Below are positions 32,980-57,868 of a DNA stretch of 64,000 nucleotides, piece after piece (the stretch's first letter is position 1; each line of letters opens with the position of its first letter). The position numbers and the translations under genes were made by a program. The notes beneath the pieces were generated by a model. The model was not told where the DNA came from. It was given only the letters and a program-made list of their open reading frames with translations, and searched no databases. The DNA comes from an uncultured Caulobacterales bacterium (GTDB lineage Bacteria > Pseudomonadota > Alphaproteobacteria > Caulobacterales > Caulobacteraceae), in the NCBI GenBank assembly GCA_903840435.1, contig CAIMFV010000022.1, forward strand, positions 1 to 64,000. The letters run 5' to 3'.

Positions 32980-34482
32980 TCAATTATCTGAGGTGAGGTT
33001 CCCAAGACCAAACTTGTGCAGCTTGGTGTACAGACCTTGGCGGCTCAGGCCGAGGAGATCGGCAGCGGATGCCCGATTATTGCGGGTCAACTCCAAAGCC
33101 GCCTCGATACACAGGCGTTCGACCAAGTCGGTACTTTCGCGAACCAGCTCTTTTAAAGTCAGCTTGCCGACCAATTCGGTCAGTTGCTCGACAGAGCGGC
33201 TTTGGCCGGGGCGGCCGACATTGCGGTCCGGCGCCATGCGCGATACGGTCCGCAAGGTGAGGCCATAGCAGGGCGCATGACTGTCGGGATTGGCGAACAC
33301 GCCTGAGACTTCCACGTCCTCAGATTCGCCGACCTGGGTGCGCACAGTGGTGCTGAAATTTTTGATCATTCCGTGGGCGCGGATGTTGTCGATCAAGATG
33401 TCGCGCTCGAGGCCAGCGCGTCCGACAAAGCGGTTCAGCGGTTGACCTTCAATCTGGGTGGTACTGCCTAGGCGGACCAAGTGTAGGAAGGCGGAATTGG
33501 CGGTTAGGATTCTTTGATCCTCATCCACCAAGACAAAGGCATCGGGAATCTTCTCCAACACCCGTTCCAGGTGATCGGTCGGGTTCACGCTTGCCGGTTC
33601 GATGGAGCCCGCGCCACTCAGGCGAACCAGGAATTGTGTGGCGCGCTCTTGCCGAAACACCGATGCTGACGCGACCAGGGGACGGCCTTCGCACAGGAGC
33701 CGCATTTCAATATGGCTGGCTTGCGGGCGCGACTGAGCCAAGGAGAGCAGGGACGCGGCATCGTCCTGGCTCGCCGGATCAAAAAGCCGCGAAAAGACTT
33801 CGCCGAACGGGTGGGCATGGGCCGGGCCGATCAACTGTTCCGCAGCCGGGTTTGCCTCGACAATCCGCTTGGTGGCCGCATCGACGATGATGATGGCCTC
33901 GCCCGACATTTGAAACAACAGACGGTAGCGGAACTCGACATCGCGCAGACGGGTATAGTCGCGCTCCATGGTTTGTTGCGCTTCAACCAGGCGCTGCTGC
34001 AGGCGGTTGGTGACGCGCTCATCCCGACCGATGGCGATGATATGGCCATCGTGGCCCGCATTGACCGCGACATAGCGAAGCGAAATCGGATCGCTATTCG
34101 GTGTTGTCTGATTGATTTCGCGCCACCGGGTGCGACCGTTTAGCGAGGCGTCTTTTAAAAGCTCTTGCACCTTATGGCGGCTATCGGCGGCGACCGTATC
34201 CGCCCAACGCCGATCAAGCCACCCATCTGCACCCTCTCGCGCCATTTCCCGCGAGGCGGCTATGTCGCAAATCTTCCCGTCTGGGTCGATGACCATGGTG
34301 ACGTCGCCACTGGCCGCCAACACAGCCTCCGCCACATCAGATTCCAACGCGCCAAGCACCCCCCGTCGAAACGGCAGGTGTTCCGAAATTTCGGCATTGG
34401 CCTGCGAGTGGGACAAGGGGGCTGGATCCAAAAACGAAAACGTTACCGAGTCAGGCGCGGACGTCAGTGAGCGAGTTGGCAT
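32980..34482 (-). CDS. ppsR: Photosynthesis repressor PpsR/CrtJ
   Basis: A 500-residue transcription factor that represses bch, crt and puc genes under oxygen or light by binding TGT-N12-ACA sites. At least two to three PAS-type domains are visible (around residues 45-150, 165-270 and 290-400; for example VMVIDPDGKICDIA-like and IPDAFVLVDEDQRILTAN). The C-terminal Fis-type helix-turn-helix has NNRASAADLLGLSRQGLYTK. A Cys at 458 at the start of the HTH corresponds in position to the redox-active Cys known from the Rhodobacter protein. It overlaps aerR by 19 bp and probably shares its transcript. Confidence 0.93.
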   Translation of the reverse strand: MPTRSLTSAPDSVTFSFLDPAPLSHSQANAEISEHLPFRRGVLGALESDVAEAVLAASGDVTMVIDPDGKICDIAASREMAREGADGWLDRRWADTVAADSRHKVQELLKDASLNGRTRWREINQTTPNSDPISLRYVAVNAGHDGHIIAIGRDERVTNRLQQRLVEAQQTMERDYTRLRDVEFRYRLLFQMSGEAIIIVDAATKRIVEANPAAEQLIGPAHAHPFGEVFSRLFDPASQDDAASLLSLAQSRPQASHIEMRLLCEGRPLVASASVFRQERATQFLVRLSGAGSIEPASVNPTDHLERVLEKIPDAFVLVDEDQRILTANSAFLHLVRLGSTTQIEGQPLNRFVGRAGLERDILIDNIRAHGMIKNFSTTVRTQVGESEDVEVSGVFANPDSHAPCYGLTLRTVSRMAPDRNVGRPGQSRSVEQLTELVGKLTLKELVRESTDLVERLCIEAALELTRNNRASAADLLGLSRQGLYTKLHKFGLGNLTSDN

Positions 34483-35348
34483 ACTCGGTTGTGGGCGAAT
34501 GTCAAAGCTTCCTGGCCGTCGCGGGCCGAGGCGTCAGCCCCTGATCTCGCCACCAATTCGGGTTGATCGACAAACGCTCCACCTCCGACAATGATAAACA
34601 GGTCGGAGTTTTTCGAGGTGGATCGCGCCAGAGAGATTAGGTCGCGAAGTCCGTCAATTCGCGAAGCATCGCTTAGCGAAAATCCCATGGCGTCAAACCA
34701 ATTATGCTCGATCGTATCGGAGATTTCGCTGGAATGGCTTCGGGTTTCAATCCAAGTGCGCCAACCGGCCCGGCGAAAATGATCCTCAACCGTGATGAGG
34801 CCAAAAATATGCTGCTCTCCCGGTGAGGGGGCGAAGAGGGCGCTATAGGGAGAGTCGGTCCGATCATAGGCGTGGGAGTGCCGAGAGCTGATCTCGCGGA
34901 CCAGCTGTTGCATGTGGCCAAGTCCTAGGGTGACGTCGGAGTAGGAGACAACGTCATCTTCCCAGTATTTGCCCAAGAGCGCCGCTGTGGGGGCGAACAG
35001 GTCAAGATAGATGCTCTCTAGCGCGTAATGCTGATCCAACAGGTCGGTGACATAGAGGATCGTCACGTCAGAATTGCCCTTGAGCACAATTGCGGCGAAG
35101 TTTTTGACCCGCTCCTCATCAAGACCGAGCTGCCGATGAGATTCTGGCGCGCTCAGTTCCCGCGCCTGGGAATGGGCGAGCATCAATCGCGGAATAATCT
35201 CGGTTTCAACAACACTGGTCAGTCTTTGATTACGCTCAGCCGTTTTTACACCTGAGTCTTTAACCCCGGCGTCGACAGCGGTTTCTGGAGCGTTTCGCGA
35301 CGCTTTCGCGAAGGTTTGGAACAGGGATGAAAAGGCGATTCCGTTCAT
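34464..35348 (-). CDS. aerR: B12-binding antirepressor AerR/PpaA
   Basis: A 294-residue cobalamin-binding regulator that antagonises PpsR in response to light and oxygen. The B12-binding domain is visible from about residue 160 on: PGEQHIFGLITVEDHFRRAG, the following WRTWIETRS, and a later LFIIVGGGAFV strand. A helical domain resembling the MtrA/MeaB-type four-helix bundle precedes it (residues 70-155). ATG 35348 has GGAGGG 7 bases upstream; the frame opens earlier at 35384 without support. The gene is divergent from bchF across the 318-bp control region and coupled with ppsR. Confidence 0.9.
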   Translation of the reverse strand: MNGIAFSSLFQTFAKASRNAPETAVDAGVKDSGVKTAERNQRLTSVVETEIIPRLMLAHSQARELSAPESHRQLGLDEERVKNFAAIVLKGNSDVTILYVTDLLDQHYALESIYLDLFAPTAALLGKYWEDDVVSYSDVTLGLGHMQQLVREISSRHSHAYDRTDSPYSALFAPSPGEQHIFGLITVEDHFRRAGWRTWIETRSHSSEISDTIEHNWFDAMGFSLSDASRIDGLRDLISLARSTSKNSDLFIIVGGGAFVDQPELVARSGADASARDGQEALTFAHNRVCQLAH

Positions 35349-35575
35349 ATTGACCCTCCACCGGTCCGTACGACAGTTTGCCAAGGCAAACCGTCGTCAC
35401 TCCTTCTGGCCCGGTGCGGAAGCGCCCTTCAGGACTTCTCGTTCGCGAACCTTTTGCGTTTCCCGGCGTGATCAGGGGTGTCTCGGGCGCCCGTGTGATC
35501 CATCCGCGCCCACCCTAGACCAGATTGTGGGTTTGTTAAGATGGACTCGCGGTAAAAATTTCGTCAAGTCAAAAG

Positions 35576-35593
35576 TGTCAAATTTGCTTGACG
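35576..35593. promoter_or_regulatory. PpsR-type box 1 upstream of bchF
   Basis: TGTCAAATTTGCTTGACG fits TGT-N12-ACG. It is a near-perfect dyad TGTCAA-N6-TTGACG with one mismatch to the TGT-N12-ACA consensus. It lies 74 bp before the bchF start in the aerR-bchF control region (35349-35666), which otherwise holds no gene. Confidence 0.75.
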
Positions 35594-35609
35594 TCATTTT
35601 TCATTGACA
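35592..35609. promoter_or_regulatory. PpsR-type box 2, abutting box 1
   Basis: CGTCATTTTTCATTGACA fits CGT-N12-ACA and shares two bases with box 1. The pair forms the tandem arrangement that PpsR/CrtJ typically uses for cooperative binding. Its right half TTGACA doubles as a -35 hexamer. Confidence 0.75.
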
Positions 35610-35633
35610 CCCCGCTTGTCGCGGTCCTAGCAT
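35604..35633 (+). promoter_or_regulatory. Likely sigma70-type promoter of the bchF operon
   Basis: A -35 TTGACA at 35604-35609 is spaced 18 bases from a weak -10 TAGCAT at 35628-35633. It overlaps the second PpsR box, so repressor binding would block polymerase. The predicted start point is about 27 bases before bchF. Confidence 0.5.
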
Positions 35634-35666
35634 CCGATCAGACGCCAACGTTTTCGGAGGCAGGGT

Positions 35667-37648
<1,982 letters not shown>

Positions 37649-57837: not shown

Positions 57838-57855
57838 TGACATATTAAAATGTCA
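57838..57855. repeat. Perfect dyad overlapping the bchG-bchI PpsR box
   Basis: TGACATATTAAAATGTCA has perfect 6-base arms TGACAT and ATGTCA. It shares TGTCA with the PpsR-type box that follows. The polarity is opposite to the TGT-N12-ACA pattern, so it is not itself a classical box. Confidence 0.55.
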
Positions 57856-57868
57856 ATCTGAGTTGACG
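57851..57868. promoter_or_regulatory. PpsR-type box between bchG and bchI
   Basis: TGTCAATCTGAGTTGACG matches TGT-N12-ACG as TGTCAA-N6-TTGACG, the same arm pattern as box 1 upstream of bchF. On the minus strand its left arm reads TTGACA, a potential bchG -35. One site could repress both divergent operons. Confidence 0.75.

Follow-up and report, generated by a model that had tools for sequence, protein, structure and literature searches.

A predicted compact PpsR operator of two abutting boxes between bchF and the divergent aerR-ppsR genes

Introduction

The locus analyzed here raises the question of how PpsR would read the region between bchF and the divergent aerR-ppsR genes. Textbook PpsR control is derived from Rhodobacter, with complete TGT-N12-ACA palindromes that lie 8 bp apart or at a distance, and a recent paper divides CrtJ sites into closely linked ones, usually separated by eight nucleotides, and distant ones that involve looping (PMC9144470). 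In the window, by which we mean the whole 64,000-nucleotide stretch of DNA under study, two PpsR-type boxes run into each other in front of bchF. A sequence-only reading had taken them for a Rhodobacter-style paired site, but pairs in Rhodobacter are 26 bp apart or distant, and the spacing here is 16 bp.

Results

Two PpsR-type boxes abut between bchF and aerR-ppsR

The genes on either side of the region are the following.

32980 to 34482, minus strand: ppsR, with PAS domains, a Fis-type HTH and Cys458 beside the HTH (TIGR02040, 415.7 bits, cut-off 275.4; PF02954)
34464 to 35350 (approximate end), minus strand: aerR/ppaA-like gene with a B12-binding domain and a likely ATG near 35350 (PF02310, 46 bits); a homologue is divergent from bchF in most loci
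35667 to 36353, plus strand: bchF, which encodes 2-vinyl bacteriochlorophyllide hydratase and heads bchFNBHLM (TIGR02020, 184 bits; PF07284)

These domain matches bear out the earlier proposal that ppsR and aerR adjoin the region, as a PpsR and a B12-binding AerR/PpaA-like protein are both encoded divergently from bchF. The elements between the genes are these.

35576 to 35609, no strand assigned: predicted 34-bp symmetric fused PpsR operator, TGT-N12-ACGT-N12-ACA, kept upstream of bchF across phototrophic Proteobacteria
35576 to 35593, no strand assigned: left PpsR-type box TGTCAAATTTGCTTGACG, facing aerR-ppsR
35592 to 35609, no strand assigned: right PpsR-type box CGTCATTTTTCATTGACA, over the bchF -35
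35604 to 35609, plus strand: TTGACA, the predicted bchF -35, forming the right arm of the operator (sequence and conserved -10 spacing)
35628 to 35633, plus strand: TAGCAT, the predicted bchF -10, after an 18-nt spacer; TAGCAT also occurs in the same-genus relatives L017 and L018 (17-nt spacer)

The fused element, TGTCAAATTTGCTTGACGTCATTTTTCATTGACA, consists of two TGT-N12-ACA-type boxes with CG (C35592-G35593) in common, and its two 18-mers lie exactly where the earlier reading had placed them. Both boxes deviate from TGT-N12-ACA at a single base, the shared inner terminal one, and both keep an intact GT-N12-AC core. The left core (35577-35592) directly abuts the right core (35593-35608) without overlap, which gives a centre-to-centre period of 16 bp. 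Each inner half is altered at one base because the boxes are fused and ACGT doubles as both inner arms; fusion costs either inner arm no more than its outermost base. The earlier reading was right about the altered half-sites, but they are not evidence of affinity tuning in this species, which it had raised as a possibility, since they belong to the fused form across alpha-, beta- and gamma-proteobacteria.

When compared with a canonical pair (two complete boxes with an 8-bp gap, 26 bp centre to centre), the element differs in that its spacing is 16 bp and its cores abut. A distant looping pair would have two complete boxes tens to hundreds of bp apart, but the matrix scan described below found no further strong box between bchF and aerR. 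Three usual marks of a PpsR/CrtJ operator are found here: each box has the TGT-N12-ACA form (tGT-N12-ACa in ChIP-seq) minus one terminal base, the element lies at a photosynthesis-gene promoter where its right arm is the predicted bchF -35 (overlap with a -35 or -10 being typical), and the regulator is encoded in the genome, PpsR adjoining the operator. Immediately upstream, CGTCAAG(T/C)CAAAAG (window 35562-35575) abuts the operator and is kept in four same-genus genomes (L016-L019); it may represent another half-site or belong to the aerR promoter.

A matrix from other genomes recovers known PpsR targets

A box matrix was built from the bchF operators of other genomes, with the window genus excluded, and was used to scan the 120-kb contig. 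Its top matches were the two bchF boxes, which ranked first (left) and sixth (right), and the following sites.

66895/66921, 68974/69000, 72042/72068 and 108240/108266: four exact 26-bp box pairs, at crtD/crtE, bchC, bchX and a puc-type antenna operon with pucC
57851 to 57868, no strand assigned: a strong PpsR-type box standing alone, TGTCAATCTGAGTTGACG, between bchG and bchI

Because a matrix from other genomes recovers the canonical pairs at crtD/crtE, bchC, bchX and puc, we assign the bchF boxes to the PpsR type, in agreement with the sequence-only reading. ChIP-seq in R. sphaeroides found PpsR bound at nearly the same list of genes (PMC4344238). The 16-bp form is found on this contig at bchF only. 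In spacing controls over 29 genomes at no more than one mismatch, N8 pairs occurred at 31 places, N7 pairs at 10 and N9 pairs at 4; at no more than two mismatches, N9 was nearly as common as N8, its matches being largely GC-rich and resembling chance.

The operator is rare, but rarity alone is not our argument, since the genome is noisy at one mismatch. The exact 34-bp form has 10 fixed bases and an expectation of 0.02 per window in dinucleotide shuffles, and 35576-35609 is its sole exact match in the 3.5-Mb genome. With one mismatch allowed, the same form was found genome-wide at 18 places versus 49 in a reversed control. A scan for TGT-N12-ACA itself, suggested earlier as a check, was uninformative, with 6 exact matches in the window versus 4.7 expected and 315 places in the genome versus 262 in the reversed control.

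The fused element is kept upstream of bchF across phototrophic Proteobacteria

The decisive evidence for a fused operator is phylogenetic. The element is kept upstream of bchF in most of the phototrophic Proteobacteria sampled, including a majority of 80 named loci whose counts are not independent events, because the set is rich in Erythrobacter relatives. Named carriers were found in Caulobacteraceae, Hyphomonadaceae, Erythrobacter, Sphingomonas, Blastomonas, Acetobacteraceae, Rhodoplanes, Variovorax, Rhodoferax, Oxalobacteraceae and Chromatiaceae. A phylum-wide sample of 398 genomes contained 31 with BchF, and 30 of these yielded loci. Outside the family labeled f16, the element was present upstream of bchF at 0-1 mismatch in 20/20 loci, and a stricter two-core count (GT-N12-AC cores and arms at 16 bp) gave 17/20; G222, a 21st BchF genome for which there was no locus, carries the element with two mismatches. 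In the Acetobacteraceae-like family f12, the corresponding counts were 30/30 and 29/30.

Family f16 is Rhodobacteraceae-like and resembles the named Rhodovulum and Rhodobacter loci. By the two-core count, none of its 10 loci has two abutting boxes; most have two exact TGT-N12-ACA boxes at about -255 and -111, about 125-145 bp apart. The 10-base count was not trusted alone, because it scored 3/10 of these loci as positive although 0/10 passed the two-core count, and a looser combined score, B8, was dropped, as a single strong box satisfies it. The two separate f16 boxes match the ChIP-verified sites of R. sphaeroides at ppaA (TGTCAAAGAAAATTGACA) and bchF (TGTAAGTCAGAATTGACA) (PMC4344238), so that, by position, the left box of the fused element is the counterpart of the ppaA box and the right box that of the bchF box.

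Among five new gammaproteobacterial loci, two have the element by either count. It is missing from two others, in which bchF faces bchG and not aerR-ppsR, and the remaining locus has a canonical 26-bp pair. In eight Chromatiaceae loci (L038, L040, L042, L044, L049, L058, L068 and L072), no AerR relative was detected between ppsR and bchF, and the left side of the operator faces ppsR directly; all eight retain the fused operator, mostly near letter for letter.

A spacing-free search of 120 regions found box pairs at 16 bp in 80, and the next distance occurred in 8 regions; 15 and 17 bp were not among the distances listed. Within the element, conservation is strongest in the outer arms, TGTCAA and TTGACA (0.9-1.85 bits), and box positions 7-12 carry 0.1-0.3 bits. 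Such free variation in the middle of the boxes, alongside preserved outer arms, means that the conservation is not merely recent shared ancestry. In the matrix of bchF operators, the central ACGT (positions 16-19) holds 1.2-1.7 bits per base. Positions 14-15, in the inner left arm, are degenerate, and the inner arms may accordingly be weaker than complete ones.

A pattern search also turned up the fused operator a second time, as an exact copy, in four genomes of one genus (G037, G045, G049 and G053). In the three genomes inspected (G037, G045 and G049), this copy is flanked by an FrhB-type (bciB-like) gene and by bchN, which lies away from bchF there. In these three (L157, L155 and L156), bchN is preceded by a small ORF that shows modest alignment to the N-terminal extension of the window BchF, some 57 aa that precede the BchF domain (window 35667-35840), and the alignment suggests that a split or fusion took place where bchF meets bchN. 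Many loci of family f12 (L163-L192) have an exact TGT-N12-ACA (TGTCAAGCGATGTTTACA and variants) at about -120 relative to where the BchF domain begins, which places it close to or within the beginning of bchF; this in-frame box could reflect coding conservation (CQAMFT) or be an additional PpsR box.

The right arm doubles as a predicted bchF -35

The use of TTGACA as the bchF -35, as the earlier reading had it, agrees with a -35/-10 arrangement that is conserved in relatives. A TANNNT was found 16-18 nt behind the right arm in 65/88 distinct operators, versus 3.1 in shuffles (maximum 8). In the window, CTAGCA, 17 nt past TTGACA, is an alternative reading of the -10, and the bchF transcript is predicted to begin near 35640. 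The spacer between -35 and -10 contains CCGCTTGTCGCGG (window 35612-35624), an imperfect inverted repeat that we take to resemble RegA/PrrA sites. Read in reverse, the left arm is also TTGACA, and a -10 was seen on the aerR side of 18/88 distinct operators. A divergent aerR promoter with the left arm as its -35 was set aside, since this count supports it weakly in general and none is clear in the window genome.

Discussion

We consider it very probable that the element is a compact PpsR operator, in which two abutting sites form a 34-bp dyad between divergent operons, are occupied jointly and control both bchFNBHLM and aerR-ppsR. PpsR forms dimers, tetramers and octamers (PMC3949515), and either two dimers or one tetramer would sit on both boxes. 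Occupation of the right box would cover the bchF -35 and keep RNA polymerase off bchFNBHLM, occupation of the left box would allow PpsR to limit its own aerR-ppsR operon, and AerR would modulate the PpsR-operator complex. With aerR-ppsR divergent on the other side, the likely role is thus repression of bchFNBHLM together with autoregulation of aerR-ppsR. Repression by occlusion is the part of this prediction that analogy with tested relatives supports well: PpsR control of bchF has been established experimentally by ChIP-seq in R. sphaeroides (PMC4344238), and in D. shibae mutation of bchF boxes derepresses bchF (PMC10890935). Autoregulation is likely, but it is the weaker half because the aerR-side -10 is weakly supported and not evident in the window genome. 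Transcription of ppsR has been reported to be constant in several species (PMC10734443).

What was observed is the sequence, its conservation and spacing, the promoter overlap, the gene context and the matrix identity of the boxes; PpsR binding, joint occupancy, cooperativity and autoregulation are inferred, and joint occupancy is the less certain because the inner arms appear weaker than those of a complete box. At 10.5 bp per turn, the canonical pair spans 2.48 turns and the fused pair 1.52. Because 16 bp is this genome's canonical 26 bp minus one helical turn, the spacing numbers suggest that two bound units would be rotated relative to each other much as in a canonical pair, but would sit one turn nearer.

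One alternative is that a single box is occupied at a time, the abutting sites being too tight for two dimers, with alternative registers that favour control of either aerR-ppsR or bchF. The boxes lend themselves to this in that each alone is incomplete, since the terminal base is missing from both inner arms and the left one is degenerate at positions 14-15, but both cores are intact and do not overlap, and the pairs are fixed at 16 bp, with neither 15 nor 17 bp among the listed distances. Loss of exactly one turn from the canonical spacing is also what would be expected for bound units that touch, and we regard alternating occupancy as rather unlikely. A second alternative, that the TTGAC arms are mere -35 hexamers of two divergent promoters and that no repressor reads the element, would account for the conserved -35 in the right arm and for the TTGACA of the reversed left arm. 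It is very improbable, because the central ACGT is conserved though it is no promoter element, the left arm is kept even where there is no visible -10 behind it, and the derived matrix recovers known PpsR targets on the contig. That some regulator other than PpsR reads the central palindrome is slightly less probable still: the centre does read TGACGTCA in the window and throughout its genus, but beyond the genus just ACGT survives (TTACGTCC, GGACGTAT and AAACGTCC), the outer arms are the best conserved, and arms and position match ChIP-verified PpsR sites in Rhodobacteraceae.

The fused form also bears on how PpsR sites are searched for, as a strict TGT-N12-ACA search misses an operator of this form, which sits at a gene pair that includes the repressor itself. 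Sediminicoccus KRV36, which we take to be a member of the Acetobacteraceae, may illustrate this. A Prodoric-based search in that strain gave sites at bchC and puc only, yet ppaA and ppsR responded like targets (PMC10949492), and autoregulation has been suggested (PMC11406998). The fused operator could be the missing site, given its presence in all 30 loci of the Acetobacteraceae-like family. We give even weight for and against a broader proposal, in which the 16-bp double box would add a third class to the PpsR operators and would be the ancestral form between bchF and aerR-ppsR in phototrophic Proteobacteria. On it, one PpsR assembly would set both bacteriochlorophyll synthesis and its own level, and Rhodobacteraceae, from which most mechanistic work comes, would have lost it by a split into two complete sites. 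With 16- and 26-bp operators in one genome, the influence of spacing on PpsR cooperativity and redox response lends itself to direct comparison.

In the open-access literature searched, no description of an overlapping or abutting class of PpsR sites was found, and the element can be placed beside three known systems. The bchC operator of R. capsulatus has two CrtJ palindromes at -47 to -30 and -21 to -4 (PMC5362033), and it resembles the fused element in having two TGT-N12-ACA-type boxes over a bacteriochlorophyll operon promoter, near half-integral helical phase; its boxes, however, are 26 bp apart with an 8-bp gap, whereas those of the fused element are 16 bp apart, with abutting cores and common inner terminal bases. 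At the pucB and crtI operators of Rubrivivax gelatinosus, PpsR binds ACG- or CGT-armed boxes like those of the fused element, and spacing alters cooperativity and redox response (PMC4452267). The 8- versus 9-bp effect there indicates that PpsR binding responds to changes in spacing, although the gaps at pucB and crtI are 9 and 8 bp and no abutting pair is described. Closest in setting is the bchF/ppaA region of Rhodobacteraceae (PMC4344238; PMC10890935), which has the same divergent gene pair, PpsR-type sites and a right box over the bchF -35, but there the boxes are exact and, in f16, mostly about 125-145 bp apart, whereas here they form a single fused 34-bp dyad.
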